A stretch of 64,000 bases of DNA from Paracoccus binzhouensis (GTDB lineage Bacteria; Pseudomonadota; Alphaproteobacteria; Rhodobacterales; Rhodobacteraceae). Below the pieces are notes generated by a model. It saw only the letters and a list, made by a program, of their open reading frames with translations. It was not told where the DNA came from and searched no databases. Position 1 is the first letter of the stretch; each line of letters starts with the position of its first letter. The translations under genes and the position numbers were made by a program. Below are positions 6,734 to 58,753 of this stretch, piece by piece. The stretch spans positions 62,001-126,000 of the forward strand of contig NZ_JAEHFP010000001.1 of NCBI RefSeq assembly GCF_016446475.1, written 5' to 3'.

Positions 6734-9405
6734 CCCCCGATGCCGAAATTCGCCCCTCTCCTGAAGCACTTCTCACGCAAGCCGCGCGTGAGGGGCGGGG
6801 TCGGCTAAAGGTCTTTCTGGGCGCAGCCCCGGGGGTCGGCAAGACCTGGGCGATGCTGGATGATGCGCACCGCGAGGCGGAGAAAGGCCGCGACGTGGTC
6901 GCCGCCTTGATCGAGACGCATGGCCGGGCCGAGACGCAGGCAAAGCTCGCGGGCCTTACGCAACTGCCGCGCAAGCCCGTGATCTATCAGGGCCGCGCCC
7001 TGACCGAGATGGACCTTGACGGCCTTCTGGCCCGAAAGCCCGATCTGGCGCTGATCGACGAACTCGCGCACACCAACGCCGATGGCAGCCGCCACGAGAA
7101 GCGCTGGCAGGATGTCGAAGAGGTGCTTGCCGCCGGGATCGACGTCTACACCACGTTGAACATCCAGCACATCGAGACGCTGAACGAGACGGTGGCCCGC
7201 ATCACCGGCGTCCGCGTGCGCGAAACCGTGCCCGACGGCGCGCTGGGGTCGGCCGACGAGATCGAGCTGATCGACCTGCCGCCGGATGAACTGGTGGACC
7301 GGCTGAAGCAGGGCAAGGTCTATCCCGCCGATCAGGCGGCCCGCGCGCTGTCGTCCTTCTTCGTCAAGGGCAACCTGACGGCGCTGCGCGAGCTTGCCAT
7401 GCGCGCCGCCGCCGACCGGGTGGACGCGCAACTGCGCGAACACATGGCCGCGAACGCCATCGCCGGGCCATGGCCCACGCAGGAACGCATCCTCGTCTGC
7501 ATCAACGAAAGCCCCGCCGCGCGCGAGGCGATCCGCGTGGCCAAGCGCAGCGCCGACCGGGCGCGCGCTGAATGGATCGCGGTGAACGTGGCGCAGGCGC
7601 GGATGGAGGCGCTGCCCGAGGCTGACAAGGACCGGCTGGCGGGCAGCCTGCGCCTGGCCGAACGGCTTGGTGCCGAACTGGCGACACTGGAGGCAGAGCA
7701 CGACGTAGCCGAAGCGATCCTCGACTTTGCGAAGGCCCGCAACGTCCGCCGCATCGTGATCGGCCGCCCGCGGCCCCGGCCGTTCTGGGCGAAGTGGGCG
7801 TCCGAGGACGTCGCGACCGATGTCCTGCGCAAGGCAGGGCCGTTCGAGGTGACCGTCGCCTCGGAACCGGACGAAAAGCCGAAGGCCAGCCGTTTCCGCC
7901 TGCCGCGTCTGGCGTCAGAGCCAAAGGCATGGGGCGAGGCGGTGCTGGCCGTCGCCATCGCCTCGGCCTGTTCCTGGGCCGCCGAACAGCTGTTTCCGGT
8001 GGCCAGCCTCAGCGTGATCTACATGACGGCGGTGGTGGTGGTGGCCAGCCGCCGCGGGCTGGGGCCTGCCCTTGCGGCGGCCGTTCTGGGCTTCATGGCC
8101 TACAATTTCCTCTTCACCCACCCGCGTTATACCTTCCACGTCTCGCGGCAGGGCGAGCTTTTGACCTTGGGGCTGTTCCTCGCGGCCTCGCTGGTCACCG
8201 GCAACCTCGCTGCCCGCCTGCGCGCCCGGGTGGATGCACAGGCCGCCATCGCCGACCGCACCAACAAGCTTTACGACTTCAGCCGCCGTGTCGCCGCCGC
8301 AGCCACGGCTGACGATGTCGTCTGGGCCTCGGTCAGCCATGTGGCGACGACGTTGCGTTGCGAGGCGGTGCTTCTGATGCCGCGCGGGGCCGAGTTGCGG
8401 GTGGTGGGGGGCTTTCCGCCCGAGGATCGGCTGGACGTCCGCGACCAGTCTGCTGCGCAGTTCGCCTGGGAGAAAGGCGAAGCAGCTGGCCGGGGATCGG
8501 ACACCTTGCCCACCGCCCGGTGGTTCTTCCTGCCGCTGGTTGCTGGCGACCGGCGGCTTGGCGTCCTTGGCATTGCCTATGCCGACGACCGCCAGCTCGT
8601 ACGCACCGACCGCCGCCTCCTCGATGCGCTGATCGACCAGATAGCCCTGGCGCTGGAACGGCTGCGCCTGACCGAAGACCTTGCCGCCACCCAGCTTGCG
8701 ACTGAGACTGAACGTCTGCGAACGGCTCTGTTGAACTCGGTCAGCCACGACCTGCGCACGCCCCTTGTGACGATCATTGGTGCTGCTGGCCACCTGGCGG
8801 AAGCCGATTTGCCCCAGGATGCTCGCCGCGATCTGGCCGAGAACATCCGCGAGGAGGGTGAGAGGCTCGACCGCTACGTGCAGAACCTTCTCGACATGAC
8901 GCGCCTCGGCCATGGTGCGCTGAAGCCTCGCTTGGCCCCGCAGGACGTGGCCGAGATCGTTGGGGGCGCACGAGCGCGGACGAAGGCCATCCTGCGCGGT
9001 CATGATCTGCAGGTGGACCTTGCGCCAAATCTCCCGCTGATCCTCGCCGACGGGGTGCTGCTGGAACAGGTGCTCGTGAACATCCTCGACAATGCCGCCA
9101 AGTACGCGCCCGAGGGCACCGCCATCGGCATCGCCGCCCGATTGCAGGGAGTGCGCGTGGAGCTTTCGGTGACAGACCGCGGCCCCGGAATCCCGCCCGA
9201 GGATCAGGCCCGTGTCTTCGACATGTTCTACCGCGTGGCCGGGGGCGACCGTCAGCGCGCGGGCACCGGCCTTGGCCTTGCCATCTGCAAAGGGCTGGTA
9301 GAGGCGATGGGCGGCACGATCCGTGCCGAGACCGGCTGGCCCGATGGCACCGGCACGCGTATCGTGATGGCACTCCCCTTCCACAACCCCGAGGTCGCTG
9401 CGTGA
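6730..9405 (+). CDS. kdpD: KdpD, K+/turgor sensor histidine kinase
   Basis: This 891-aa sensor kinase has the N-terminal KdpD domain with Walker A GAAPGVGKT at residues 31-39 and NIQHIETLN. A universal-stress-protein-like domain (ILVCINESPAAREAIRVAKR) follows. Then comes a DUF4118 block of four membrane helices near residues 400-500, a GAF-like domain, a HisKA H-box SVSHDLRTPL with the phospho-acceptor His near residue 672, and an HATPase domain (DNAAKYAPEG, DRGPGIPPEDQ, GTGLGLAICKG). It autophosphorylates at low K+ and passes phosphate to KdpE. Start and stop overlap kdpC and kdpE by 4 bp each. The length is the family norm. Confidence 0.97.
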   Translation: MTPDAEIRPSPEALLTQAAREGRGRLKVFLGAAPGVGKTWAMLDDAHREAEKGRDVVAALIETHGRAETQAKLAGLTQLPRKPVIYQGRALTEMDLDGLLARKPDLALIDELAHTNADGSRHEKRWQDVEEVLAAGIDVYTTLNIQHIETLNETVARITGVRVRETVPDGALGSADEIELIDLPPDELVDRLKQGKVYPADQAARALSSFFVKGNLTALRELAMRAAADRVDAQLREHMAANAIAGPWPTQERILVCINESPAAREAIRVAKRSADRARAEWIAVNVAQARMEALPEADKDRLAGSLRLAERLGAELATLEAEHDVAEAILDFAKARNVRRIVIGRPRPRPFWAKWASEDVATDVLRKAGPFEVTVASEPDEKPKASRFRLPRLASEPKAWGEAVLAVAIASACSWAAEQLFPVASLSVIYMTAVVVVASRRGLGPALAAAVLGFMAYNFLFTHPRYTFHVSRQGELLTLGLFLAASLVTGNLAARLRARVDAQAAIADRTNKLYDFSRRVAAAATADDVVWASVSHVATTLRCEAVLLMPRGAELRVVGGFPPEDRLDVRDQSAAQFAWEKGEAAGRGSDTLPTARWFFLPLVAGDRRLGVLGIAYADDRQLVRTDRRLLDALIDQIALALERLRLTEDLAATQLATETERLRTALLNSVSHDLRTPLVTIIGAAGHLAEADLPQDARRDLAENIREEGERLDRYVQNLLDMTRLGHGALKPRLAPQDVAEIVGGARARTKAILRGHDLQVDLAPNLPLILADGVLLEQVLVNILDNAAKYAPEGTAIGIAARLQGVRVELSVTDRGPGIPPEDQARVFDMFYRVAGGDRQRAGTGLGLAICKGLVEAMGGTIRAETGWPDGTGTRIVMALPFHNPEVAA

Positions 9406-24360: not shown

Positions 24361-24732
24361 ATGGCACGGACCCTGAAGGACAAGCTGGCCGCACTCGAAC
24401 CGGCCCGTTGCGCGGGCGTCGAGGCCGAGGCCGACCGCCTCCACACCGAATATCTGACGCTTCAGGAGCTTAGGAAGGCCAAGGATCTGACGCAGGTCCA
24501 ACTGGCCCAAACCCTCGGCATTCAGCAGGCGACGGTCGCGAAATACGAGCGCCAGAGCGATCTGCTGCTCTCGACGCTTTCAAGCTATGTGCAGGCCATG
24601 GGGGGCAGCCTGAAGCTCATGGTCGAGTTTCCCGGCAAGGCGCCGGTGGCGCTCGAGGGTCTTGGTGAGATCGAGGAACCCCGCCGCCGCCGTTCGGCAC
24701 GCGGCAATGAACAGGCCGCCGCGCGTGCCTGA
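24361..24732 (+). CDS. HigA-like XRE antitoxin
   Basis: The 123-aa protein MARTLKDKLAALEPARC has a Cro/C1-type helix-turn-helix (LRKAKDLTQVQLAQTLGIQQATVAKYERQ, near residues 37-66) and a basic C-terminal tail. The start at 24361 has AAGGA at 8 bp. An alternative ATG at 24352 overlaps the toxin stop but sits directly against the AAGG. It should bind HigB and repress the promoter. The gene ends 1 base before the convergent DUF6441 gene. Confidence 0.88.
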   Translation: MARTLKDKLAALEPARCAGVEAEADRLHTEYLTLQELRKAKDLTQVQLAQTLGIQQATVAKYERQSDLLLSTLSSYVQAMGGSLKLMVEFPGKAPVALEGLGEIEEPRRRRSARGNEQAAARA

Positions 24733-45265: not shown

Positions 45266-45342
45266 CTTTCGGTTGGAGGGAAGGCGCTCGGGGCGCTCGA
45301 ATGGGAAAAGCCACCGGCGAGACCGGCTCGGGACATCGGCTC
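45266..45342 (-). repeat. 77-bp leader repeat, copy B
   Basis: This is the second copy of the 43761-43837 element. It lies between the sigma-like gene stop (45341) and the 64-aa gene start (45256). Shared blocks are GGTGGCTTTTCCC, the GCCGGT/CCGG hairpin-like part and CCCTCCAACCGAAAG on the minus strand. Confidence 0.6.
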
Positions 45343-46063
45343 AGGGGATTTCCTGGAGGGCGTCGTGCAGCCGGCGCATCGCGCGCTGGTACCGCTTGCG
45401 AGCGGCGGCCTCGGTCAGCCCCAGTTCGACGGCGATCTCGGCCTGGGAGAAGCCCTCGATCGCCACGCGGATCACCAGCAGGGCGTCGTCGCCGAGCAGC
45501 TTCCGCACGGCGCCGTTCAGCTGTGCGTACCCGGCCGCGCCGATCCCGCTGTCGCCGCTGTCCGCCACCTCGTCGGGATCGGCGCCTCTGGCGAGATGTT
45601 CGCGCGCCTGGTCGCGCTGGCGGGCGCGGATCATGTCGCGCTCCACGTTGCGCAGCACCGTGGCCGCGATCCAGTTGACGCGGCCGAGGTCGAGGCCGCG
45701 CACTGCCTCGGTCGTGCGCCCCAGCACGTCGGAGGCGACCTCGTCGGCGGTGCCGATCCTGCGCCAGATCGACCGGCGCCGGATGGCGTCGAGGCCGGGC
45801 CAGAGCGCCAGCAACAGCACCGTCAGGGCGCAGTCGGACGTGGGCCCGTCGCCCTGCGCCGCCCCGACCAGCGCGGCGAGGATCACGTTCTTCCGGGCCG
45901 GATCGCCGGTCGTGCGATGCAGCCCGTCCAGCAGGGCCGCCGGATCCCGGAACGGTGTGAGGGCAGCCTGCGCACGCCGGACGGCGTCGAAACTGCGCTG
46001 GAAGTGAAGGTTGGAAGAAGAATGCATGAGGTGATCACGGATCTCGTGCCACGCGAAGGACAT
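45341..46063 (-). CDS. Sigma-70-like phage transcription factor
   Basis: The 240-aa protein has a middle helix set (GRVNWIAATVLRNVERDMIRARQRDQAREH) like sigma region 2. The C-terminal region-4 helix-turn-helix is GFSQAEIAVELGLTEAAARKRYQRAMRRLHDAL. It could redirect RNA polymerase to phage promoters, or be a degenerate sigma used as an activator. The start is uncertain: ATG 46063 lies directly under a 10-bp stem hairpin, and ATG 46027 (MHSSSNLHFQ) is an alternative. Its first codons are inside the 116-bp repeat. Confidence 0.75.
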   Translation of the reverse strand: MSFAWHEIRDHLMHSSSNLHFQRSFDAVRRAQAALTPFRDPAALLDGLHRTTGDPARKNVILAALVGAAQGDGPTSDCALTVLLLALWPGLDAIRRRSIWRRIGTADEVASDVLGRTTEAVRGLDLGRVNWIAATVLRNVERDMIRARQRDQAREHLARGADPDEVADSGDSGIGAAGYAQLNGAVRKLLGDDALLVIRVAIEGFSQAEIAVELGLTEAAARKRYQRAMRRLHDALQEIP

Positions 46064-46154
46064 CGGACGCCTGCCTTGCGGCCAGGCGTCCGGCGCCTTC
46101 TCGTGGCCAGGTCAGGACGTCGCGCGTCTCTGCGATTTCAGGGTGTTGGGTGAA
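46039..46154. repeat. 116-bp perfect direct repeat, right copy
   Basis: This is identical to 1136-1251. Here it is in its natural place: the first eight codons of the sigma-like gene and the whole spacer up to 9 bp from the Com-like stop. It contains the hairpin CGGACGCCTG / CAGGCGTCCG (46064-46092). Confidence 0.95.
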
Positions 46155-46162
46155 AGCGCGTG

Positions 46163-46408
46163 TCAGCGCGCGGGTGCGGTCGCGTTGTTCAGCGTGCCGC
46201 AGCCCCGACAGGTGGCCTGCACCGGGAAGCCCACGAGATACTCGTGCCCCCGCGCGAAGCGCAGGTGCATGCGGCCGTCCCGGCAGACGCCGAGCAGCTT
46301 GTCACAGCGCGTGCAGCGCCATTCCGAGTTGTGGGTGGTGGGCTTGGTCTTCGCGGCGCCGGACCAGCTCGTCTGGGCTGCCTGGCGCGGGGGGAAGGGA
46401 GTCGGCAT
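46163..46408 (-). CDS. Com-like zinc-finger regulator
   Basis: The 81-aa protein has CTRCDKLLGVCRDGRMHLRFARG and TCRGCGTLN, two C-x2-C pairs making one zinc site. This resembles Com of phage Mu, which activates translation of the mom DNA-modification gene by binding mRNA. Here two methyltransferases lie downstream in the same direction, so a similar role is possible but unproven. It is the first gene of the minus-strand early block. Confidence 0.8.
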   Translation of the reverse strand: MPTPFPPRQAAQTSWSGAAKTKPTTHNSEWRCTRCDKLLGVCRDGRMHLRFARGHEYLVGFPVQATCRGCGTLNNATAPAR

Positions 46409-46450: not shown

Positions 46451-46500
46451 AGAATCATCGACCGTCTAACCCCCCAATCATCGACGGTTCATCGACGGGG
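46451..46500. promoter_or_regulatory. Three direct copies of TCATCGACSG before early genes
   Basis: AATCATCGACCGT, AATCATCGACGGT and TTCATCGACGGG lie in 50 bp upstream of the Com-like gene. The region also follows the 704-codon gene. Repeated, spaced copies suggest a repressor or activator binding site controlling the early promoter. Confidence 0.45.
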
Positions 46501-46532: not shown

Positions 46533-48647
46533 TCAGTTTGTCTTCAACCCCCACCAAGACTGGCCGAGGTCTTCGATGTAGTCTTGGAAGATCGGCCACC
46601 GCTTTTTTCCAAGCATCTGCTGGATGCCGGTCGACTTCGAACCGTCGATGAGATCGCGGGTCTTCACCCCGGGTAGACCTTTCTTCTTCGCGTCGACCAG
46701 CAGCCGGAAACAGTGGACCTGCTGCTCGCTGAACAAAGGCAACTCCGGCTTTCCGGGCACGTGAAGTGTTCCTGACTCCCCATCCGCGTTTTCCACGAGG
46801 GTCAGGGCCGTGCCGCCGAGCGCAAGTCCGAGGTTCGAACGGAAGAAAGTCTGGACGAAGCTCTTATCGAGGCTGGCAAATCCTGCCGAGCCATCGATGG
46901 CCCGGGGAAGGGTCATGATGAGGTTCGCGGCGATGCATTTACAGCCGGGATCCTTCCCGCAGAACACGATGCCGGGGCCCGCTCCGGATCGCATGCGCAA
47001 TTGGACCTCGGCATCCACGAACCACTTCTGTTCGCCCAATCCGCGCGCGAGGTAGCAGGGAACATCTTTTCCATCGATGGACATGCTGCCGATGAAGAAG
47101 AGCCTCGTTGTGATCTCTTGCTTCCCCTGAATTGACAGCACGCTCTGCAGAGCCTCGATGATCCGCTGCTCGAGCCATTCCGTGCTGATGGCATAGAGCA
47201 TCCGGTCCTTCGCTGGTGGTACGTCTTCGTCGTCGAAGTCGTCGATCACGCTGTCATCGACGTCCTTGCGCACGATCAGCTTGGCCTCGACGAGGCGATC
47301 CGGGTCGCTTTTCCTCTCCGAGAAGAATGTTGCGGGGACTGTGTCTTCCCCTCGGTCATGCAGTTCCAGCAGCAAGGGGAGGAAGTCGCCGAGCTCGCCG
47401 GAGCTGAGGTCTCGGAAGGGATGCTGGATCTTCCACTCGGTGAGAAGCGTCCGCCCCAGCCTGCGAAGCTCGGGATCGGGATCGCTGAGCAGGCTGCAGC
47501 GGTTACGGTCGGAGATCGTGATCTCCAGGAGGGACGGAGGGTCGGATTCCTGGCGCCGGTAGCGCACCGCGATGACGGCTCGGGAGATCCCCGACGCGCG
47601 CTGAAGTACGCGGGCGGGCGCCAGGTAGCTTTGCGCTGTCTTCTCGATCTCGTCGCCAAACGGGACAGAAAGACGAAGCCTTTGCTTCCACCTGGCGAGG
47701 CGCACCTCGATTTCGACGAGCGCAGTCTTGTCCACGAGGAACCCGGGCACGGCAGGTGGGTCAAGCGTGAGCGTCCTGAAGAACTGCGAAAGATCGTAAT
47801 TCACCCACGTCAGCGGCTTCGTCGATACATCGTGCCCCAGGACCTCGGTTGCAAAACACTCAGAAACCAACGCGCGCTCTGGGGCTGTATCAGCACAAAT
47901 CTCGATCCTTTGTTCCACAGGGGTGTAGATCAGCAGAACTTCCTTTTGCGGTCGCAGAAAGCGAAGGCGCCTGCCTCCATTGTCGAGATGTTCGGGAATA
48001 CCTGTGATGTCCTTTGGAATCCGGATAATCACCAGAACCGACGGCTTGTACGCTTCCGTGGCCGGGAGGTCGACGACGCTCATTCCACAATCTACGGAAA
48101 GCTTGAGGCGCAACCGCACAGCAGCGAGGAGTTTCTCCTTCGGTATCGCGTTTGCGTCCACCGGCTTGGGGTGCTCGAGATCCACATCGAATGCGCTGTA
48201 CAGCTTTCCATCTCGCCATAGGCGTGCATTTCGGAAGCTCACGGCGTCATCGAATGCCCGACGATGATGAGCGTGAACGTGTAGTGCGACGGCCAACTCA
48301 CCAAGCTGAGTGAACGCAGCTTCGTACTCCTCGTTGGAGAGTTCCTCTTCGGCAATCACCTTGAGAGCGGACGGGCCCTTTCCGTTCGTCAAAAGTAAAA
48401 CGCGTTGCGCCTCGATTTCGACAGGAAGCGTGACCTCCGGTTTCATGTCGTTGATCGCTGCGATCACCGCATTTCGGCTCTCTTCGTTGTCTTCTTCTTC
48501 GAGGGGCTGAAAAGGTTCAGCGATCTCCGAGGCAATCGCAACGAAATTCTCATCGTCCTGAAAAAAGAAGCCCCGAAGCGATTCGGGTGATGCGTTCTCA
48601 ATTACTGTCTGAAGGGACCGCAAGCTACGTTTCGATGAAGGGGCCAT
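46533..48647 (-). CDS. Large protein of unknown family in cargo position
   Basis: The 704-aa soluble protein begins MAPSSKRSLRSLQTVIENASPESLRGFFF. No domain is recognised. Visible features: an acidic N-terminus, a basic/His-rich stretch ALHVHAHHRRAFDD, beta-rich middle segments, a Cys/Lys-containing VFCGKDPGCKCIAAN, and a C-terminal part (QVHCFRLLVDAKKKGLPGVKTRDLIDGS) like a small wHTH. Base composition looks lower in G+C than its neighbours. It lies between early genes and the recombinase cassette, a usual site for lysogenic cargo. Defence or host interaction is possible. GAGAGGA precedes the ATG. Confidence 0.8.
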   Translation of the reverse strand: MAPSSKRSLRSLQTVIENASPESLRGFFFQDDENFVAIASEIAEPFQPLEEEDNEESRNAVIAAINDMKPEVTLPVEIEAQRVLLLTNGKGPSALKVIAEEELSNEEYEAAFTQLGELAVALHVHAHHRRAFDDAVSFRNARLWRDGKLYSAFDVDLEHPKPVDANAIPKEKLLAAVRLRLKLSVDCGMSVVDLPATEAYKPSVLVIIRIPKDITGIPEHLDNGGRRLRFLRPQKEVLLIYTPVEQRIEICADTAPERALVSECFATEVLGHDVSTKPLTWVNYDLSQFFRTLTLDPPAVPGFLVDKTALVEIEVRLARWKQRLRLSVPFGDEIEKTAQSYLAPARVLQRASGISRAVIAVRYRRQESDPPSLLEITISDRNRCSLLSDPDPELRRLGRTLLTEWKIQHPFRDLSSGELGDFLPLLLELHDRGEDTVPATFFSERKSDPDRLVEAKLIVRKDVDDSVIDDFDDEDVPPAKDRMLYAISTEWLEQRIIEALQSVLSIQGKQEITTRLFFIGSMSIDGKDVPCYLARGLGEQKWFVDAEVQLRMRSGAGPGIVFCGKDPGCKCIAANLIMTLPRAIDGSAGFASLDKSFVQTFFRSNLGLALGGTALTLVENADGESGTLHVPGKPELPLFSEQQVHCFRLLVDAKKKGLPGVKTRDLIDGSKSTGIQQMLGKKRWPIFQDYIEDLGQSWWGLKTN

Positions 48648-48774
48648 CACTTCCTCTCGCTAAAGACGCCAAGGCAACTATAAGCGCAGCATCCCGCAGG
48701 GGCACTCGCCCATCAATAGATTTTCTCCCGCTCCGACATGGGGCTGTCCCATCGGCAGCCGTCAGGTGGCTTTT

Positions 48775-48797
48775 GATCGGTAACAGCACCACCGATC
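48775..48797. promoter_or_regulatory. Inverted repeat upstream of recombinase cassette
   Basis: GATCGGT-aacagcacc-ACCGATC is a perfect 7-bp inverted repeat ending 14 bp before the first cassette gene. ATGGG/CCCAT arms lie about 25 bp further upstream. It may be an operator for the divergent promoters of the recombinase operon and the 704-codon gene. Confidence 0.45.
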
Positions 48798-48811
48798 ACG
48801 GGTACCAAGAC

Positions 48812-49015
48812 ATGAAGCGCCCCAATCCGCTCACGCCCGACCAGATGACGCCCGCAGAGCGCCGCACCGAGCTGTGCGGCCTGCTGGCGCTCGGGCTGGT
48901 TCGGTTGCGGATGCGGGAGACGGGCGAAGTATATGACGATACCGGAGAAAGTTGCCTACACTATCCGCCCGACCAATGCCGTCATGCAACTCCAACTTGC
49001 CGGAGAAATGCATGA
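48812..49015 (+). CDS. 67-aa protein of the recombinase cassette
   Basis: MKRPNPLTPDQMTPAERRTELCGLLALGLVRLRMRETGE is a small helical protein. A similar ORF often precedes DUF2924 genes in alphaproteobacterial prophages (from memory). Its stop overlaps the DUF2924 start (ATGA), which supports a real coding gene. Function unknown. Confidence 0.75.
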   Translation: MKRPNPLTPDQMTPAERRTELCGLLALGLVRLRMRETGEVYDDTGESCLHYPPDQCRHATPTCRRNA

Positions 49016-49467
49016 ACAAACCCGACCCCATCCCCGCGCGCCTGGCCGCGCTCAAGACAACTTCAACGCCCGACTTGAAGAAGCAGTGGCGCGATCTGTT
49101 CGACAGCGAACCGCCGCCGTTCAACAGGCGCTACCTCGAAAGCCGCATCGCCTATCGCATCCAGGAACTGGCCTATGGCGGGCTGAAGCCCGAAACGGTC
49201 CGGCGGCTGGAGCGGCTGGGCGAGAAACTGGACGGCGGCGACAGGACGAAGCGCAGCCTACGCGCCGACCGTGACCGCCCGATCACCGGCACGCGGCTGC
49301 TGCGCGAGTGGCAGGGCGTCGAGCAGATCGTCACCGTCACCGCCGAAGGCTTCGAATGGCAGGGGCGCCCCTACAAGTCGCTGTCCGCCATCGCGCGGGC
49401 CATCACCGGGACGCGGTGGAACGGCTGGGTGTTCTTCGGACTCAAGAACCACAGGGGGCGGACATGA
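49012..49467 (+). CDS. DUF2924 protein
   Basis: The 151-aa protein MNKPDPIPARLAALKTTSTPDLKKQWRDLFDSEPPPFNRRYLESRIAYRIQELAYGGL (in part) is followed by GTRLLREWQGVEQIVTV and ITGTRWNGWVFFGL. This is clearly DUF2924. Members are found directly upstream of large serine recombinases and may help DNA binding or regulate recombination. It overlaps both neighbours by 4 bp. Confidence 0.9.
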   Translation: MNKPDPIPARLAALKTTSTPDLKKQWRDLFDSEPPPFNRRYLESRIAYRIQELAYGGLKPETVRRLERLGEKLDGGDRTKRSLRADRDRPITGTRLLREWQGVEQIVTVTAEGFEWQGRPYKSLSAIARAITGTRWNGWVFFGLKNHRGRT

Positions 49468-50789
49468 CGAAGCCGCCCGAAAAATCGAAGCTCGTCCGCA
49501 AGCTGCGGTGTGCCGTCTACACCCGTAAATCGTCTGAGGAAGGGCTGGAGCAGGAGTTCAATTCGCTCCACGCCCAGCGCGAGGCCTGCGAGGCGTATAT
49601 CGCCAGCCAGCGATCCGAGGGCTGGGTGCTGGTCCGCGATCAGTATGACGACGGCGGCATCTCCGGCGGCACGCTGGAACGGCCCGGTCTTCAGCGGCTG
49701 GTCGAAGACATCGAGGACGGGCTGGTCGACGTGGTGGTGGTCTACAAGATCGACCGCCTCAGCCGCTCGCTGGCCGACTTCGCCAAGCTGGTCGAGGTGT
49801 TCGACCGGAACGGCGTGACCTTCGTCTCGGTCACCCAGTCGTTCAACACGACCACGTCCATGGGGCGACTGACGCTGAACATCCTGCTGTCCTTCGCCCA
49901 GTTCGAGCGCGAGGTTACGGCCGAACGAATCCGCGACAAGGTCGCCGCCAGTCGAAAGAAGGGCATGTGGATGGGCGGGGTGCCGCCTTACGGCTACCGC
50001 GTCGAGAACCGGAAGCTGGTCATCGACGACGAGAGCGCCGCGCATGTGCGCTGGATCTTCGCGCAATTCCTCGAGATCGGGTCCTGCACGGAACTGGCGC
50101 GGGAGGTCGGCGCGCGCGGCCTCCGGACGCCGCGCGGCAACCGGATCGACAAGAAATACATCTACCGCATGCTCAGCAACCGCGCCTACATCGGCGAGGC
50201 GGTCCACAAAGGCGACAGCTATCCCGGCGAGCACGACGCCATCATCGATCCCGAGATTTGGGACCGCGTCCACGCCATCCTGCAGGAGAGCCCGCGCAAG
50301 CGCGCCGCGCGCACCCGCGCCGACACGCCCGCGCTGCTGAAGGGGCTGCTGTTCGGGCCCGATGGCGCCGCTTTCTCACCGACCCACACCCGCAAGGGCG
50401 ACAGGCTCTACCGCTACTACGTCAGCCAGACCGTGCTGAAGCACGGCGCTGGAGCCTGCCCTGTAGGCCGCGTACCTGCCGCGGAGATCGAGGGCGCCGT
50501 CATAGACCAGCTCCGCGCCGTGTTCCGCCAGCCGGAGATCGTGGCGGGGACGTGGAAGGCGGCGCGTGCCTACGCCGAAGATATCTCCGAGGCCGACGCA
50601 CGCGCGGCCTTGCAACAGCTCGACCCGCTGTGGGACGAACTCTTCCCCGCCGAGCAGGCGCGCATTGTCACGCTGCTGGTCGAGCGCGTCGATATCGGCA
50701 CGAACGGGCTCAACTTCCGGCTCCGGATGGACGGCCTCGGAGGGCTCGCGCGCGAGATGCTGTCTGGCAGCATCGGAGCAGCGGCATGA
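49464..50789 (+). CDS. Large serine recombinase (integrase)
   Basis: The 441-aa protein has a resolvase domain with catalytic Ser23 in VYTRKSSEEG, then YKIDRLSRSLADFAKL and the E-helix region FAQFEREVTAERIRDK. The recombinase domain (GVPPYGYRVENRKL, NRAYIGEAVHKG) follows, and a short C-terminal coil. It probably integrates and excises the prophage by serine chemistry. The zinc-ribbon cysteines of many large serine integrases are not evident. It overlaps the next gene (ATGA). Confidence 0.93.
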   Translation: MTKPPEKSKLVRKLRCAVYTRKSSEEGLEQEFNSLHAQREACEAYIASQRSEGWVLVRDQYDDGGISGGTLERPGLQRLVEDIEDGLVDVVVVYKIDRLSRSLADFAKLVEVFDRNGVTFVSVTQSFNTTTSMGRLTLNILLSFAQFEREVTAERIRDKVAASRKKGMWMGGVPPYGYRVENRKLVIDDESAAHVRWIFAQFLEIGSCTELAREVGARGLRTPRGNRIDKKYIYRMLSNRAYIGEAVHKGDSYPGEHDAIIDPEIWDRVHAILQESPRKRAARTRADTPALLKGLLFGPDGAAFSPTHTRKGDRLYRYYVSQTVLKHGAGACPVGRVPAAEIEGAVIDQLRAVFRQPEIVAGTWKAARAYAEDISEADARAALQQLDPLWDELFPAEQARIVTLLVERVDIGTNGLNFRLRMDGLGGLAREMLSGSIGAAA

Positions 50790-51311: not shown

Positions 51312-51338
51312 GTCGAAACCGGGCGAAGTAGATTGCGC

Positions 51339-53717
51339 ATGAACGAAGCCGACACCTGCAGGAAGTTCGTCGTCCCGAAGCTGCAGGAAGCAGGCTGGGA
51401 TGATCGCCCGCACGCGATAAACGAGCAGAGAACTTTTACTGACGGCCGAGTTGTATTTGTCGGCGGCAAAGCTCGCCGTGGCAAGCAGAAGCGCTCAGAC
51501 TATCTTCTCCGCTATAATCCGGATTTCCCGATCGCCGTCGTTGAGGCCAAATCCCGCTACCGGCACGCCGCGGAGGGCCTCCAACAAGCCAAGGAATATG
51601 CAGAAATCCTTGGACTTCGGTTCGCGTATTCGACCAACGGGATCGAGATTGTCGAGTTCGACTACACGACCGGCATCGAGCGAACGATCTCGGATTTCCC
51701 GGCGCCTGATGACCTTTGGGCTCGGCTCCGCCGCGCCGAGGGCATTGTCGACGACCAAGTGGCCGAACGGCTGCTGACGCCCACCTTTCCAGACCGAGCC
51801 AAACCCCTTCGCTACTATCAGGAAATCGCGGTGAACCGCGCGGTCCAAGTGGCCCTTCAGGGCAGGAAGCGGGCCCTTCTCACACTGTGCACCGGAGCGG
51901 GCAAGACTGCCGTCGCCTTCCAGATCTGCTGGAAGCTATGGTCAGCACGCTGGAATTCCAAAGGGGTCAACCGAAACCCGAAGATGCTGTTTCTCGCTGA
52001 TCGCAACGTCCTGGTCGACGATCCGATGGCAAAAGACTTCAGCCCGTTTGGCGACGCCCGTCACAAGATAGCTGGCGGCGTGGCGGTCAAGAGCCGCGAC
52101 ATGTATTTCGCGATCTACCAGTCCATCGCGCGTGACGAGAACCGTCCCGGCCTCTACCGAGAGTATGCGCGCGACTTCTTCGATCTCATCATAATTGACG
52201 AATGCCATCGTGGCAGTGCGCGCGACGACAGCAATTGGCGAGAAATCCTCGAGTGGTTCGAGCCTGCGACCCAGATCGGGATGACAGCGACGCCGCGGCG
52301 AGAGGATAACGTCGACACCTACAACTATTTCGGCGATCCGCTTTATGAATACAGCCTGGCGCAGGGCATCGCTGACGGCTTCCTGGCCCCGTATCGCGTC
52401 CATCGCGTCATATCGGACTACGACGCTGCAGGCTGGCGACCAACGCGGGGTGAACTTGATCGCTATGGTCGCGAGATCCCCGACGCCGAATACTCGACGC
52501 GGGACTTCGAGCGGGTCGTGGCGCTGCGGGCTCGAACTCAGGCCATTGCGAAACATCTCGCGGGCTTCATGGCCGAGACCGACCGCTTCGCGAAGACCAT
52601 CGTCTTCTGCGTCGACCAGGAACACGCGCTCGAAATGCGGCAGGCGCTCGCCGCCCTGAACACCGATCTCGTGAAGGACCATCCCGACTACGTTTGCCGT
52701 GTGACGTCCGACGAAGGCGATGTGGGAAGCGCGCACAGGGCGAAGTTTCAGGATGTCGAGACCCAGACGCCGGTCATCCTCACCACGTCGCAGCTTCTCA
52801 CGACCGGCGTGGACGCCCCGACCTGCAAGAACGTGGTGCTCGCGCGGGTCGTCGGCTCCATGCCGGAGTTCAAGCAGATCATCGGACGGGGCACCCGTCT
52901 CCGGCCCGACTACGGCAAGCTCGCCTTCAACATCATCGACTACACCGGAACCGCGACGCGCATGTTCGCCGATCCCGCCTTTGACGGCGATCCCGTCCGC
53001 GAGGACGAAGCGGTGATCAATGCGGACGGCGACATCGTGGAAGAGCGCGAGATCGAAGAAGTGGCGCCGGATCCGGACGATTTTCCTGAAGGGCCCGATA
53101 TCCCGGATGGACCGGTCGAGCTGGGGGACGAGGGCGAGAACGGGCCCCGCAAGTTCTATGTCGACGGCGGCGAGGTCGCGATCGTCCGGCACCTCGTGTA
53201 CGAACTCGATTCTGACGGCCGGCAACTCGCCTGCCGCCAGCTCACCGATTACACTGGCGACAAGGTCCGCACACTCTACCCCAATGCGTCGGAACTGCGC
53301 ACGGACTGGCTCGATCCCGAACGCCGGGCGGAAATCGTCGAGCGGCTCGAGGAAAAGGGCATCGACCTCGATTCCCTGGCTGATGCAGTCGGAAAGCCGG
53401 AGGCCGACCCGTTCGATCTCCTTTGCCATCTCGCCTATAACGCGCCGCTGCGCACCCGGCGCGAGCGCGCTGACCGTCTGGTGAGGGAGCAGGACGAGTT
53501 TCTGGACCGCTTCGGGCCGGATGCCCGCGAAGTTCTGGATGCCGTGCTTGAAAAGTATGCCGAACATGGCAGTGCCCAGTTCAAGCTGCCCGACATCCTT
53601 GAAGTGCCCCCGTTCAACGAGTGGGGCAACGTCATAGAAATCGCCGCCCGCTTCGGCGGGGGCAAGGAGCTGCGCAGCGCCGTCACCGAGCTGCAGCGTC
53701 TGCTCTACACCGCTTGA
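51339..53717 (+). CDS. hsdR: Type I restriction enzyme R subunit
   Basis: The 792-aa protein has an N-terminal nuclease domain with FPIAVVEAKSRYRHAAEGLQQAKEYAEIL (E-x-K and the QxxxY-like motif). SF2 translocase motifs follow: LCTGAGKTAVAFQ, LIIIDECHRGSARD, GMTATPRRED, TTGVDAPTCKNVVLAR and QIIGRGTRLRPDYG. The length fits the EcoEI-like R subunits. It pumps and cleaves unmodified DNA with HsdM and HsdS. The ATG at 51339 is preferred over a TTG two codons upstream. Confidence 0.95.
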   Translation: MNEADTCRKFVVPKLQEAGWDDRPHAINEQRTFTDGRVVFVGGKARRGKQKRSDYLLRYNPDFPIAVVEAKSRYRHAAEGLQQAKEYAEILGLRFAYSTNGIEIVEFDYTTGIERTISDFPAPDDLWARLRRAEGIVDDQVAERLLTPTFPDRAKPLRYYQEIAVNRAVQVALQGRKRALLTLCTGAGKTAVAFQICWKLWSARWNSKGVNRNPKMLFLADRNVLVDDPMAKDFSPFGDARHKIAGGVAVKSRDMYFAIYQSIARDENRPGLYREYARDFFDLIIIDECHRGSARDDSNWREILEWFEPATQIGMTATPRREDNVDTYNYFGDPLYEYSLAQGIADGFLAPYRVHRVISDYDAAGWRPTRGELDRYGREIPDAEYSTRDFERVVALRARTQAIAKHLAGFMAETDRFAKTIVFCVDQEHALEMRQALAALNTDLVKDHPDYVCRVTSDEGDVGSAHRAKFQDVETQTPVILTTSQLLTTGVDAPTCKNVVLARVVGSMPEFKQIIGRGTRLRPDYGKLAFNIIDYTGTATRMFADPAFDGDPVREDEAVINADGDIVEEREIEEVAPDPDDFPEGPDIPDGPVELGDEGENGPRKFYVDGGEVAIVRHLVYELDSDGRQLACRQLTDYTGDKVRTLYPNASELRTDWLDPERRAEIVERLEEKGIDLDSLADAVGKPEADPFDLLCHLAYNAPLRTRRERADRLVREQDEFLDRFGPDAREVLDAVLEKYAEHGSAQFKLPDILEVPPFNEWGNVIEIAARFGGGKELRSAVTELQRLLYTA

Positions 53718-53734
53718 ATTGAAGGAGCTCTATC

Positions 53735-55300
53735 TTGGCTACAACCGCCCGAAAGAAGGCTGCGCCGAAGCAACTGACCACTGCCCAGCGTCTCGACAGC
53801 ATCATCAAGTCCGCCCGCAAGATCATGCGGAAGGACAAGGGGCTGAACGGCGACCTTGATCGGTTGCCGATGCTCACCTGGATCATGTTCCTGAAGTTCC
53901 TCGACGACATGGAGCGGATCGAGGAGGGACGCGCAGAACTTGCTGGCAAGGATTATCGCTCGATCATCGAGGCCCCTTATCGCTGGCGCGATTGGGCGGC
54001 GGACGCCGATGGCATCACCGGTCCCGACCTCCTGTCGTTTCTCGTTTCCGAAATGACCGAGCGCCCGGACGGCACACGCGGCCCGGGGCTCTTCGCCTAT
54101 CTCCGAGGCTTGCGCGGCGACAATGGGCGGCGCGAGCGGCGCGACGTGATCGCAACCGTCTTCCAGGGCTTCGCCAACCGGATGGAAAGCGGCTACCTGC
54201 TGCGCGACGTGGTCAATCTGATCGACGGCATCCATTTCGATTCTTCGGAAGAAGTTCACACCCTCGGGCGCCTGTACGAGACGCTGCTGCGCGAGATGCG
54301 GGACGCTGCAGGAGACTCGGGCGAGTTCTACACGCCCCGGCCTGTCGTGCGGTTCATGGTCGAAGTGACCGACCCCAAGCTAGGCGAAACCATCCTGGAC
54401 CCGGCATGCGGCACCGGGGGATTTCTGACCGAGGCGTTCCTGCATCTCGAGCGCCAGGCCGATACGGTCGAGAAGCGGCGCATCCTCCAGGAAGACAGTT
54501 TCTTCGGCGGCGAGGCCAAGTCGCTGCCGTTCCTGCTGTCCCAGCTCAACCTCCTGCTGCACGGCCTGCATGCCCCGCGCATTGACCCCGGCAATGCCCT
54601 TCGCTTCCGCTTGGCCGAGATCGGCGAGGATCAGCGGGTCAACGTCATCCTGACCAATCCGCCGTTCGGCGGCGAGGAGGAGGCAGGCATCCTCAACAAC
54701 TTCCCTGAGGACCGGCGCACGGCCGAGACGGCACTGCTGTTCCTGCAACTGATCATGCGGCGGCTGAAGCGCGCCGGGCGCGGGCGGGCCGCGGTCGTCG
54801 TTCCGCACGGCACGCTGTTCGGCGATGGCATCTCGGCGCGGATCAAGGCGGACCTGCTCGAGAAGTTCAACCTGCATACGGTGGTCCGGCTGCGTGAAGG
54901 GGTGTTCGCGCCCTATACGGACATCCCGGCAAACCTGATCTTCTTCGACACGACCGGGCCGACGAAGGACATCTGGTACTACGAGATGCCGCTGCCGGAG
55001 GGCCGCAAGAAGTACTCGAAGACCGCGCCCATGGCCTATGAGGAGTTTGCGGACTGCCTCGCCTGGTGGAAGAAGCGCGAGCCGAGCGAGCGCGCCTGGA
55101 AGGTCTCCGCGACTGATCTGATCCAGCGCGACGAGCAGGATCGCGTTGTCGCCTGTAACCTGGACATCAAGAACCCGCATTCCGGCGCGATCGCCGATCA
55201 TCGCGCGCCGGCCGAGATCGTGGACGCGATCATCGCACAGGAACAGCGGATCCTCGGCATCATGGACGAGATAAAGGCCGTGCTGGCGGAGCGGGTGTGA
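53735..55300 (+). CDS. hsdM: Type I DNA methyltransferase M subunit
   Basis: The 521-aa protein has the N12-type helical domain, GEFYTPRPVVRFMVE, SAM motif DPACGTGGFLTEAF and catalytic ILTNPPFGGEEE. It methylates adenine in the bipartite target. The start is TTG at 53735, behind GAAGGAG at good spacing and 17 bp after hsdR. Its stop overlaps the hsdS start (TGATG). Confidence 0.95.
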   Translation: MATTARKKAAPKQLTTAQRLDSIIKSARKIMRKDKGLNGDLDRLPMLTWIMFLKFLDDMERIEEGRAELAGKDYRSIIEAPYRWRDWAADADGITGPDLLSFLVSEMTERPDGTRGPGLFAYLRGLRGDNGRRERRDVIATVFQGFANRMESGYLLRDVVNLIDGIHFDSSEEVHTLGRLYETLLREMRDAAGDSGEFYTPRPVVRFMVEVTDPKLGETILDPACGTGGFLTEAFLHLERQADTVEKRRILQEDSFFGGEAKSLPFLLSQLNLLLHGLHAPRIDPGNALRFRLAEIGEDQRVNVILTNPPFGGEEEAGILNNFPEDRRTAETALLFLQLIMRRLKRAGRGRAAVVVPHGTLFGDGISARIKADLLEKFNLHTVVRLREGVFAPYTDIPANLIFFDTTGPTKDIWYYEMPLPEGRKKYSKTAPMAYEEFADCLAWWKKREPSERAWKVSATDLIQRDEQDRVVACNLDIKNPHSGAIADHRAPAEIVDAIIAQEQRILGIMDEIKAVLAERV

Positions 55301-56457
55301 TGGTCACCGCAAAAGTTCCGCTCTCAGACCTGTTGTCCCTGGTTTCTGATCCATGCCGCGTCGATCCACGCGGCAGCTACCCAAACCTCGGGATCTACAG
55401 CTTTGCCCGCGGCGTCTTCGGCAAGCCACCGATCGACGGGGCCCAGACGAGCGCCAACACGCTCTACCGGGTGCGGAAAGGCCAGTTCATTTACAGTCGG
55501 CTTTTTGCATTTGAGGGAGCTTACGCCATCGTTCCCGAGGAAATGGATGGCGTCTTCGTCTCGAACGAATATCCCACCTTCGATGTCGATCAGGACCATC
55601 TGCTGCCTCGATACCTGTACTGGTTGTTCCAACGCCGTGACGTGTGGCGGCAGGTCGCGGTCGGCGCCAAGGGAATGGGCGACCGCAGGCAACGTGTGCA
55701 CCCCGACAAGGTGCTGAGCTACCGGATCGACCTTCCGTCCCTTGGCGACCAGCGCCGCATCATTGAAAAGCTCGACCGGGTCGCGGCGCTGGTGGACGAC
55801 CGCCGCAACGCCATCGAGGCGGCCGAGCGCGAGACGCAGGCGTTGCTGCTGAAAGCCTTCCAGCGCGCCATCGACGGCGCCCCCCTGCGCCCCATGGCCG
55901 AGGTCGCGCCGCTGGTGCGAAGACCGGTCGAGATCGATCTCGACGCTGCCTATCCGGAACTCGGCGTCCGGTCATTCGGTCGGGGCACGTTCCACAAACC
56001 CGAACTGCCCGGCGTTGAGGTCGGCAACAAGAAGCTGTTCCGCATCTGCGCGGGCGACCTCGTGTTCAACATCGTCTTTGCCTGGGAAGGCGCTGTCGCC
56101 GTCGCTCAGCCAGAAGACGATGGCCGGGTCGGCTCACATCGTTTCCTGACCTGCGTTCCCGCGCCGGAAACCGCAACCGTCGAGTTCCTACGCTTCTATT
56201 TCTCGGCGCCCGAGGGATTGCAGAAGCTGGGTGAAGCATCTCCTGGCGGAGCGGGACGGAACCGGACGCTGGGATTGAAGAAGCTCGAAAGCTTGCAAGT
56301 GCCGGTCCCACCAATCGGTCGACAGCACTGGTTCGACCGCCTTCAGACGAAGGCGCACGAAGCCCGCACCATCCGCGCCAACACCGCGCAGGATGTGGAG
56401 GCCCTGATTCCGGCCATGCTGCACGAGATCTTCGACGGTGGGGCGAAGGCCGCGTGA
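55300..56457 (+). CDS. hsdS: Type I specificity S subunit
   Basis: The 385-aa protein has two target-recognition halves. The first runs about residues 1-165 (PNLGIYSFARGVFGKPPIDG). The second runs about 195-345 (PELGVRSFGRGTFHKPELPG). Each half ends in a conserved spacer helix (LGDQRRIIEKLDRVAALVDDRR; QTKAHEARTIRANTAQDVEAL). The repeated G-I/V-R/Y-SFGRG-F pattern shows the internal duplication. It decides the DNA target. GTG at 55297 is an alternative start. Confidence 0.93.
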   Translation: MVTAKVPLSDLLSLVSDPCRVDPRGSYPNLGIYSFARGVFGKPPIDGAQTSANTLYRVRKGQFIYSRLFAFEGAYAIVPEEMDGVFVSNEYPTFDVDQDHLLPRYLYWLFQRRDVWRQVAVGAKGMGDRRQRVHPDKVLSYRIDLPSLGDQRRIIEKLDRVAALVDDRRNAIEAAERETQALLLKAFQRAIDGAPLRPMAEVAPLVRRPVEIDLDAAYPELGVRSFGRGTFHKPELPGVEVGNKKLFRICAGDLVFNIVFAWEGAVAVAQPEDDGRVGSHRFLTCVPAPETATVEFLRFYFSAPEGLQKLGEASPGGAGRNRTLGLKKLESLQVPVPPIGRQHWFDRLQTKAHEARTIRANTAQDVEALIPAMLHEIFDGGAKAA

Positions 56458-57035
56458 CTGTGAGCCGGGACGATCAGCCCGATCTGCTATCGGACCTTTC
56501 GGATCTGGACTTCGTCCGTCATCTGCTGGCCGACCTTCATGACGACCTGCCAGGGAAAGTCGGCCGTTTCCGGATGCTGACAGATCTGGGCGGCCAGATG
56601 GGTCGATCCGGGACGATGATTTTCGGCGGCCATGCGGCCTATCACGCTTGGGTCGAAGCGCGTTCGTCGTTCGTGCACGGCAACTATGTGGCGACGATCC
56701 TGCTGTGTCAGGGCCTCGTGGAGCATCTGCTGGCGGCATATCTTCACGCCGGGCTTCTGGTTGATGACATTCCGGATCGCATCCAGTTCGCCGACACCCT
56801 CCGCCGCTGCCGAGAGCGCGAGGTAGTCTCTGATGAAGACGTCACCGACCTCCGCCGCATGATGGCGCTGCGAAACCCGTTGTCGCACTTCCGGCATGTC
56901 GATGACGGCAGCAGTCTTGATCGTCGTAGCATCGATGAGAGCAGATCGGCGGACGACCTGCTGCGCCATGACGCGATCTTTTCGATCGGTCTCGCCGTTC
57001 GGATGCTTTCAAGGCCTGCGTTCCGGCTCGGCTAG
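56454..57035 (+). CDS. HEPN-like protein coupled to the type I operon
   Basis: The 193-aa protein starts at GTG overlapping the hsdS stop (GTGA). It is largely helical. HAWVEARSSFVHGNYVATILLCQGLVEHLLAAYL resembles a HEPN core helix. RNPLSH (R140-x4-H145, Asn after Arg) matches the R-x4-6-H motif of HEPN RNases. HEPN proteins in defence operons often cut RNA. Translational coupling to hsdS suggests joint action, for example as a back-up effector. The HEPN call is an inference from motif and helix content. Confidence 0.75.
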   Translation: MTVSRDDQPDLLSDLSDLDFVRHLLADLHDDLPGKVGRFRMLTDLGGQMGRSGTMIFGGHAAYHAWVEARSSFVHGNYVATILLCQGLVEHLLAAYLHAGLLVDDIPDRIQFADTLRRCREREVVSDEDVTDLRRMMALRNPLSHFRHVDDGSSLDRRSIDESRSADDLLRHDAIFSIGLAVRMLSRPAFRLG

Positions 57036-57055
57036 CAATCGGGGCCACCAGCTGG

Positions 57056-57967
57056 TCATCGTCGAACGGACCGAGTTTTTGGTGGCGTGATCCGATCACC
57101 CTTCGCCAAGATGTAGTCGGCGATCTTGTGCCCGAGGGGATGGGGCCCCGCCCACAGCATGTAGTAGATTGGGACACCTCGCGTGTTCCTGACGACACTC
57201 GGTGTGGCGGCGTGGCCGAACAAGGTCTTCAGGCGGCCGACGTAGTGGTCAAGAAGCCGCTTGGCTGCATCGTCAACCTTGTGGCGGGTCGTATCCCCGA
57301 AGAGGTCGGTGCGCTCTGCGTAGACGAGGCTCTCCCAGTCCGCACCGCCGAAGCAGCCGTTCAGCCCCGCGCGCCAAGTTTCGGGAATGTCACCCGAGCG
57401 CGTGATCAATCTGTTGATGGCCATTCCAAGCGGGAAGTTTATGATCACCTCAAACTTCTTGGTTGATCCCAGAGCCGCGACGGTTCGCCAGTCCAGGTGG
57501 GGGCCATAAGGATCGAGGAAAGCAACACCCCTCATGTTCCGCCCCGCAATCCGCGGGACCAGCTTCTGGATCAATTCGTTCGCGTCGCCAACCTGAACGC
57601 TGATCTTTCGAGCCGGGTACTCGGCCCTCAAGCCCTCGAGAAGGGCCGCGCGCCCTGCATCTGCGTCAAAGAAATGATATTGGGTGAAAGGGTGTTCGAG
57701 AGCGAGGGCTCGGTGCGGGGAGCCTTCGATGAACTGCTCCTCGGACCGAACGAACTCGTCATCAAGAAGCTGAAGGTCTTCGTCATCAGCACCGGCCCAG
57801 GCGTCGCGGATTCTTGACCGTCCCGCGCCGGCGAATGCGTCGACGTAGACCAGTTCGAAGGACTGTTTCTTCAGCGCAATGGTGTAAGCGTGAAGATATG
57901 CCTCGAGGCCATCGAGCTTTTGCCGAGCCCATGGGCCAACCGTATTTTCAATATGCGATTTCTTCAA
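57056..57967 (-). CDS. tcmP: Three-Cys-motif partner protein TcmP
   Basis: The 303-aa protein starts at TTG 57967 (KKSHIENTVGPWARQKLDGLEAYLHAY). It has YVDAFAGAGRSR near residue 43, a nucleotide- or SAM-binding-like loop, and VAFLDPYGPHLDW, the hallmark pair of the TcmP family. It always occurs beside a DUF5131 (Gp37/Gp68) gene, which lies just upstream here. The reaction is unknown; a methyltransferase-like fold is likely. It is convergent with the HEPN-like gene, 20 bp away. Confidence 0.88.
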   Translation of the reverse strand: MKKSHIENTVGPWARQKLDGLEAYLHAYTIALKKQSFELVYVDAFAGAGRSRIRDAWAGADDEDLQLLDDEFVRSEEQFIEGSPHRALALEHPFTQYHFFDADAGRAALLEGLRAEYPARKISVQVGDANELIQKLVPRIAGRNMRGVAFLDPYGPHLDWRTVAALGSTKKFEVIINFPLGMAINRLITRSGDIPETWRAGLNGCFGGADWESLVYAERTDLFGDTTRHKVDDAAKRLLDHYVGRLKTLFGHAATPSVVRNTRGVPIYYMLWAGPHPLGHKIADYILAKGDRITPPKTRSVRR

Positions 57968-57994
57968 TGATGGCGGTACTCCGTGCGAAATGGT

Positions 57995-58753
57995 TCACGC
58001 TGAAATCTGATCGAGGATCGGCTTCGGGACGATTTGCCACGGAAAGCCGTTCCATTCCTCACCATCGAGCAGACGCCCCCCCGACTTCGGACGGGCGCCA
58101 CCCCATTGTTTGAAGAAGAAAGCGACGTCGTCACGTTCGCAGATGTCCCGGATCTGGCGGGCCCAGCTTTCGTCCATGGGCCGAGCCCGGGGCCCGCTCT
58201 CCCCCCCGACGATGGCCCAAGCGACGCCCTGCAGATCGACATCCCCGACCGGTCCGAGCAGCGGCTCGAACGAGATGAAGCGCGCGTCGGAATTGATCTG
58301 CTTCAGGTGCTCGATCCGGCTCGCGTGCGCGGCGTCCTCGACAGAAACGCCGAGCCAGATGTGCCGAGGGACCGGCCCTCCATCATACCGCTTCCGAACG
58401 TAGTTGCGCATGAGCGAGCTGCGCTTGGTCAGCACCTGGTAGACGTGCCAGTCCGCCAGCTCCATGGCGTCGAACACCGCGTCGATGAATGTACGGTCGA
58501 TGTCCTTGTGGAAGAGGTCGCTCATCGAGTTCACGAAGATCATCCGCGGCTTTTTCCAGAGCACGGGCTGCTTCAGCCTCGACGGCCAGAGTGTCAGGTC
58601 AAAGCCCTGCTCGTAGGGGTGTCCAGGGATTCCACGCCAGCGCTCTGCGAACCGCTCGGCGTAGCAGTTGTCACAACCGGGACCGACCTTGGTGCAGCCC
58701 GTCACCGGGTTCCACGTCGCGTCCGTCCATTCGATGTCTGACTTCTGGGCCAA
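57995..58753 (-). CDS. DUF5131 (phage Gp37/Gp68) three-Cys-motif protein
   Basis: The 252-aa protein starts at TTG 58753 (AQKSDIEWTDATWNPVTG), with GAGG upstream. The three cysteines C20, C27 and C30 (GCTKVGPGCDNCY) form the motif that names the partner family. MIFVNSMSDLFH, VLTKRS and WAIVGGESGPRARPM follow. The fold is related to radical-SAM-like TIM barrels, but a standard C-x3-C-x2-C is absent. It is paired with TcmP 27 bp downstream. Function unknown; phage homologues exist. Confidence 0.9.
   Translation of the reverse strand: MAQKSDIEWTDATWNPVTGCTKVGPGCDNCYAERFAERWRGIPGHPYEQGFDLTLWPSRLKQPVLWKKPRMIFVNSMSDLFHKDIDRTFIDAVFDAMELADWHVYQVLTKRSSLMRNYVRKRYDGGPVPRHIWLGVSVEDAAHASRIEHLKQINSDARFISFEPLLGPVGDVDLQGVAWAIVGGESGPRARPMDESWARQIRDICERDDVAFFFKQWGGARPKSGGRLLDGEEWNGFPWQIVPKPILDQISA

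Follow-up and report, generated by a model that had tools for sequence, protein, structure and literature searches.

A prophage protein exchanged together with a triple direct repeat: a candidate immunity regulator in a widespread prophage lineage

What does a 704-codon gene do that lies beside the early genes of a prophage and belongs to no named family? We met it in a 64,000-nucleotide stretch of DNA from Paracoccus binzhouensis, here called the window, and a preliminary description had taken it for the occupant of a cargo slot. In the ORF listing, the minus strand is open across 46533-48650, and the ATG at 48647, preceded by GAGAGGAAG, yields the 704-residue product of 46533..48647 (minus strand) that we call P1; several stops interrupt the plus strand over the same interval. 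Copies with 97-99% amino acid identity occur in Shinella, Tropicimonas and Paracoccus, and also in MAGs labelled Zavarzinia, Alphaproteobacteria, Rhodocyclaceae and Halothiobacillus, labels that may be wrong. The median dN/dS within three P1 allele groups is 0.06, 0.10 and 0.12. Given near-identical proteins in several hosts and these low ratios, the reading frame is more than a product of chance. G+C is 58.5% at 47-49 kb of the window against 67-70% at 38-47 kb, and P1 genes sampled from other allele groups have 53-62% in loci of about 64.5%. Profile searches against Pfam (to an E-value of 1), NCBIfam and PADLOC gave no family match; the single PHROG match (phrog_37634, E 7e-12), to a family whose function is not known, covers only the N-half. 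The preliminary description was right about the 704-codon frame, the lower G+C, the family without a name and the position between the early genes and the integration cassette. The locus is laid out as follows.

49308..50789, plus strand: large serine recombinase with Resolvase, Recombinase and Zn ribbon matches (ORF as listed; the true start is probably further in)
49012..49467, plus strand: DUF2924 gene, divergent from P1 (PF11149, E 3e-52)
48650..48810, no strand: segment upstream of P1, swapped along with it (blastn breakpoints; flank homology resumes at 48765-48812)
46533..48647, minus strand: P1, 704-residue protein, core switch-region gene (ORF, start, homologues, purifying selection)
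46455..46496, minus strand: candidate operator, triple GTCGATGA at 46496-46489, 46485-46478 and 46462-46455 (spacing 11 and 34)
46163..46408, minus strand: 81-residue Cys-rich, com-like protein, first gene behind the candidate operator (ORF; adjoins P1 in 95 of 97 contigs)
45341..46063, minus strand: sigma-70-like factor (Sigma70_r4_2, E 1e-8; TIGR02937 below its cut-off)

Past P1 and on the same strand, the genes run in the order com-like gene, sigma-70-like factor, Sak4, helicase and primase/helicase. The name com-like reflects what we take to be a resemblance to Mu Com; a Pfam scan of the full 81-residue protein gave no match. On the divergent side, the DUF2924 gene and the serine recombinase are followed by a second recombinase-PHROG gene, a type I restriction cassette, a TcmP-like gene, a DUF5131 gene and a tRNA-Ser. 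HsdR, HsdM and HsdS occupy 51333-56457, between recombinase and tRNA-Ser; the window's HsdR and HsdM are 93-100% identical in several other contigs and 29-44% identical or not seen in others, and this end is the likelier variable cargo end. The TcmP-like three-Cys-motif partner at 57056-57967 is a PADLOC candidate (PDC-M41A, region 56454-58753), and the DUF5131 gene lies at 57995-58753. A search for short att repeats of the window prophage found none.

We then asked how constant the P1 slot is. P1 matches occur in 29 of 196 related genomes and in 52 of 390 genomes of the order. We also collected viral contigs, 6 through the window P1 protein and 85 through three allele-based alignments; since these were gathered with chosen queries and include many near-duplicates, P1 allele frequencies among them mirror the queries used. 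Each of the 23 matches to the left flank (E below 1e-30) has a P1 match beside it (the copy in genome G036 being the N-half only), a count that omits one 130-bp duplicate fragment inside the window. The com-like gene directly follows P1 in 95 of 97 contigs and the DUF2924 gene directly precedes it in 88; L169 and L172 are the two in which the search showed no P1. The cargo slot of the preliminary description is thus not supported: the slot holds a core gene of a large prophage lineage.

The family comes in a long form of 705-806 residues, a split form of two adjacent genes (L131, L132, L133) and a short, N-only form of 396-462 residues, and profile comparison links long to short (E 9e-41). Twenty places (L096-L115) had been chosen for carrying the recombinase with no P1 match in the related-genome search; 15 of them hold a short-form relative, one a 278-residue piece. 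Among the others, L110 has an XRE-S24 repressor in place, L097, L100 and L115 carry another protein of 249-287 residues in the P1 place beside the same recombinase, possibly another switch protein, and no candidate was recognised in the P1 place of L103. Near the P1 slot of L110, beside the XRE-S24 repressor, a 227-residue protein (7087-7767) with no Pfam match resembles the P1 winged helix at its C-terminus by eye.

P1 itself is variable. Its alleles fall into nine to eleven groups, mostly 25-35% identical to one another. Elsewhere in Paracoccus, the DNA flanking P1 left and right is mostly 77-95% identical, with P1 at about 25-40%. Across the 73 of 117 loci that have all genes, P1 identity is uncorrelated with that of DUF2924, sigma, Sak4 and g207 (rho -0.06 to 0.02), whereas Sak4 and g207 follow each other closely (0.92), sigma follows both (0.64-0.67) and DUF2924 follows the other flanking genes loosely (0.18-0.27). 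Since the flank correlations are partial and P1 shows none, the whole region recombines, and P1 the most. Exchange is visible in both directions: P1 is below 40% identical in 585 of 801 pairs with near-identical flanks (Sak4 above 93%, sigma above 85%), and above 75% identical in 125 of 683 pairs with Sak4 below 60%. Moreover, 21 loci, all from one allele group of 43 members, carry a piece that resembles the N-terminal 31-40 residues of P1 from another group and ends 80-269 bp before the P1 start; this 5' fragment is a replacement scar. A role as recombination directionality factor of the serine recombinase was considered and is disfavoured, because P1 alleles of about 25-40% identity occur next to DUF2924-recombinase flanks whose DNA is 77-91% identical.

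Between the P1 stop and the com-like gene lie three direct repeats, first noticed by eye, at offsets of +0, +11 and +33 or +34. The repeat scan covered the 92 of 105 loci in which the region could be delimited; 13 were dropped for lack of an anchor. A perfect 7-mer triple is present in 65 of the 92 and a triple with at most one mismatch in 82, the remainder having two mismatches (4 loci), three (4) or five (2). None of 4600 regions shuffled by mononucleotide reached one mismatch. When the set was thinned to P1 proteins below 95% identity, the corresponding counts were 30 and 39 of 47. The window triple is unique in the 64 kb at one mismatch, and no perfect triple occurs in 20 related loci without a long P1 (357,801 bp, both strands). 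A search for a sigma-70-type promoter found none.

The repeat differs between allele groups: the window's group has GTCGATGA, and other long-P1 groups have GTCTAAC, GCTCCGA, ATCTCC and others. We compared motif difference with protein identity in the 65 of 73 loci whose triple shows no more than one mismatch. The motif goes with P1 (rho -0.75 for the whole protein, -0.76 for its last 110 residues) and not sigma (-0.10), Sak4 (-0.04) or DUF2924 (-0.02). Where the flanks are near-identical, the motif differs in 473 of 484 pairs with P1 below 40% and is the same in all 199 with P1 above 60%; where Sak4 is below 60% but P1 above 60%, it is the same in 206 of 231 pairs and different in 23. The operator candidate is therefore allele-specific and covaries with the protein, as a repressor's would, and the fact that three copies change together argues for binding and not mere linkage.

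Two other repeats were found in these loci. Upstream of P1, a GAAC-N7-GAAC direct repeat occurs in L121, L136, L173, L120 and relatives. Its usual distance from P1 is about 97 bp or about 300 bp, and it is present in three allele groups (29 of 35, 31 of 46 and 2 of 2 loci). Its absence from the window's allele group (0 of 13) and two others (0 of 4, 0 of 2) rules it out as the allele-specific site. Five closely related short-form loci (L098, L099, L111, L113, L114) have a GGTGGG triple with one mismatch, with repeats 11 bp apart at L098:7270, L111:7347 and L114:7685. In the three of these five arrays examined, the array lies 62 bp before a 197-residue gene, whose L098 product has a weak match to sigma region 2 (Sigma70_r2). 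The array is perhaps the equivalent operator of the short-form lineage, with a separate reader: since the N-only P1 there has no winged helix, another protein must read it.

The AlphaFold model of the window protein (37 sequences, mean pLDDT 80.3, pTM 0.67) suggests three parts.

47415..48647, minus strand: N-half, residues 1-411 (AlphaFold and fold searches; alone in short forms, a separate gene in split forms)
46818..47414, minus strand: middle part, residues 412-610, predicted strands and helices (AlphaFold model)
46536..46817, minus strand: predicted C-terminal winged helix of OmpR type, residues 611-704 (PmrA 4s04_A, Z 5.8; CosR, Z 4.9 and 4.7)

In the model, the N-half consists of a helical, PYRIN-like part (about residues 70-147) and a part of CENP-N/CENP-L/RdgC type (about 148-410). 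VIA rows 1-12 for the window P1 are inner-kinetochore entries (Z 7.2-9.6, residues about 72-400), identified as CENP-N from their titles or chain letters, apart from 6nuw chain E. RdgC (6.6 and 5.7), CENP-L (6.6) and Iml3 (5.9) come next, interspersed with the unrelated Can2 (6.2) and KICSTOR (6.1). A PYRIN-domain protein matches residues 79-135 (5.2), and PmrA matches residues 613-704 over 82 residues (5.8). Foldseek placed an unrelated entry first (probability 0.15), then CENP-N (0.95) and RdgC (0.72). For the N-half of a second allele (25% identical) modelled by itself (pLDDT 80.8, pTM 0.57), the top 10 Foldseek rows are all CENP-N or RdgC (probability 0.99-0.38, TM-scores about 0.19-0.33; next row 0.09), and VIA gave CENP-N 8.5, CENP-L 7.3, YejK 7.0, TBP 6.7, Iml3 6.3 and 6.2, and RdgC 6.0. 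All these scores were obtained with predicted models: no Foldseek E-value fell below 0.001 in the fold searches, TM-scores are about 0.14-0.33, the RdgC rows have an rmsd of 7.6-8.7, and the best VIA Z of 8.5-9.6 is to be read against the 7-8 usual where there is no true relative. The best match among viral models bears the name recombination-associated protein, and the RexA crystal structure is absent among the fold matches listed.

With these scores, the centre and dimerisation domain of the N-half are predicted to belong to the CENP-N/L - RdgC - RexA fold group, and the C-terminus is predicted to be an OmpR-type winged helix. The best fold matches of both alleles are CENP-N/Chl4 and CENP-L/Iml3 (Z 9.6 for the window protein, 8.5 for the second allele), although these are eukaryotic kinetochore proteins with no winged helix and the CENP-N rows show 5-12% identity. 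CENP-N has the order PYRIN, homology domain, dimerisation domain in the available text of PMC5777823, and the predicted order of the P1 N-half is the same. The likeness to RdgC (2owy_A, Z 6.6; 2owl_A, Z 5.7; second allele 5.6 and 6.0) is likewise one of fold: P1 has no Pfam or profile match to PF04381, the comparison with that profile by hhalign gave a probability of 0.2, and no PF04381 match was found in the genome. A sequence link to RexA was equally negative (hhalign 0.3), as was a control comparison of RdgC with RexA, a pair related by crystal structure according to the available text of PMC11077077. PmrA and CosR, of the OmpR family, share with P1 the C-terminal fold and tandem direct repeats about one helical turn apart. 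OmpR proteins carry their winged helix on a receiver domain, and P1 differs in having it on a clamp-like half. The sites 10-11 bp apart are arranged as for an OmpR-type protein, and we infer that P1 binds there.

Taken together, these data suggest that P1 is an allele-typed transcriptional regulator of its phage lineage, probably the immunity (lysogeny) repressor. Its C-terminal winged helix would read the triple repeat before the com-sigma-early operon, while the CENP-N/RdgC/RexA-type clamp of the N-half probably forms a dimer that grips DNA whatever its sequence. With P1 on the tandem pair of sites and on the third, the early operon of a lysogen would be silenced, and the lysogen would be immune to any phage that shares its operator. 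A phage carrying a different P1-operator pair would get through, which would select for block exchange of the pair. Lambdoid phages have allele-specific operators and exchange their immunity regions in blocks; the likeness of P1 to the lambda CI system lies there, with repression by P1 the presumed counterpart and a protein architecture unrelated to that of CI. More tentatively, P1 may stand for a new class of immunity regulator that joins a ring or clamp half of CENP-N/RdgC/RexA type to an OmpR-like winged helix, with a three-site operator and exchanged protein-operator pairs.

We searched for CI-like genes by HTH_3 and S24 profiles, with distances read from listings and prophage ends unmapped. 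The window has no S24 or HTH_3 CI-like gene; its only HTH_3 match (24460-24612) falls in a small protein, antitoxin-like by eye, at 24361-24732 on the plus strand. Nor do six P1 prophages of five other genomes have an HTH_3 or S24 match within about 55 kb on the phage side, the nearest being about 59 kb off in G011 and 65 kb off in G089, where it lies past a second match to the recombinase. Five induced Paracoccus phages have tyrosine integrases and XRE-type CI/Cro in the available text of PMC6536676, and the P1 lineage differs from them in this respect.

The co-residence of P1 alleles fits the repressor less well. Eight genomes have two P1 copies, with identities of 25, 63, 34, 27, 99, 62, 30 and 88%; in this small sample, two copies are interrupted and two cut at contig ends. 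In G044, each P1 copy (C10 and C11) has one internal stop. Pairs above 60% identity make up 4 of 8 within genomes against 105 of 520 across genomes, so there is no shortage of like alleles within a single cell, and the exclusion that a repressor predicts is not seen. The 99% and 88% pairs share an operator, the 63% and 62% pairs differ, and in the other four, with alleles 25-34% identical, the motif was detected in only some. It is also unusual for a repressor that P1 is read toward the early operon.

Both points suit a different reading, in which P1, as the earliest product of infection or induction, acts as an activator (or as a lytic regulator like Cro) that binds the tandem sites just upstream of a com-sigma promoter and recruits polymerase in the manner of OmpR. 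P1 comes first among the genes read toward the early operon, co-resident like alleles would be tolerated, and sites 1-2, 11 bp apart, would also serve an OmpR-like activator with its winged helix. The third site, however, lies downstream of the tandem pair, where it may fall within the core promoter, and the diversification and block exchange of protein and operator would be hard to explain when they bring no superinfection advantage. We hold an activator to be rather unlikely.

The predicted fold raises a further alternative, that P1 is an exclusion protein like RexA, whose clamp half would bind DNA regardless of sequence and block superinfecting phages, and whose winged helix would only control its own operon. 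The available text of PMC11077077 describes lambda RexA as a phage excluder with a two-domain fold shared with RdgC and IML3/CHL4, encoded in the immunity region, as P1 appears to be; it binds DNA non-specifically and has CI and RexB as neighbours. At 279 residues against 704, RexA has no profile similarity to P1. We know of no winged helix in RexA. A core position, cognate repeats, the lack of a PADLOC match and the fact that lambda has a separate CI, of which none was found in the P1 prophages searched, make exclusion improbable as the main role of P1; it may yet be a side-activity, because the fold group includes RexA.

It is more doubtful still that P1 is an RdgC-like accessory of the Sak4/helicase/primase module. 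The RdgC-type predicted fold and the recombination and replication genes that follow P1 would agree with this, as would the short form lying among such genes in L104 and L108, but the allele-specific repeat and the winged helix would be left without explanation and P1 alleles do not follow Sak4 (rho -0.06). Defence or conversion cargo, as first proposed on the strength of low G+C, a nameless family and a nearby recombinase, can be set aside, with the whole sampled P1 lineage carrying one family in one position beside com, and with the type I restriction cassette at the end beyond the recombinase. What survives of that proposal is an undescribed prophage protein that probably concerns immunity; no PADLOC model covers it. 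As a core gene with cognate repeats, it is better explained as an allele-typed regulator than as a gene for defence or conversion.

A homologue in a described phage is gp6 of Acidithiobacillus phage AcaML1, 24.7% identical over 79% and in the same DUF2924-recombinase neighbourhood; it is annotated as hypothetical and differs in being read in the recombinase's direction, divergent from a regulator. A literature search of one library found no paper on the P1 family, its operator or its fold. The present reading supplies a switch protein and an operator code that can be put to the test in a large lineage of temperate phages. The lineage is little studied and no CI-type repressor was found in it; the operator motifs offer a way to type its phages. 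If the clamp half works as predicted, P1 would be a bacterial CENP-N relative that has its own specific site on DNA, and could help in studying how DNA is held by the CENP-N/L - RdgC - RexA fold and how that fold originated. The new class, if real, would tie kinetochore CENP-N/L, RdgC and RexA to phage switch proteins that recognise particular sequences, and would suggest that RexA-like proteins are either descendants or ancestors of repressors.

Finally, beside a tRNA-Cys, window positions 1136-1264 carry a 130-bp, 98% identical copy of 46039-46168, which spans the start of the sigma gene and the DNA upstream of it. In relatives whose recombinase is a 77% identical variant, DNA like window 1252-1993 lies near that recombinase. 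This part of the window may be left over from a second prophage.
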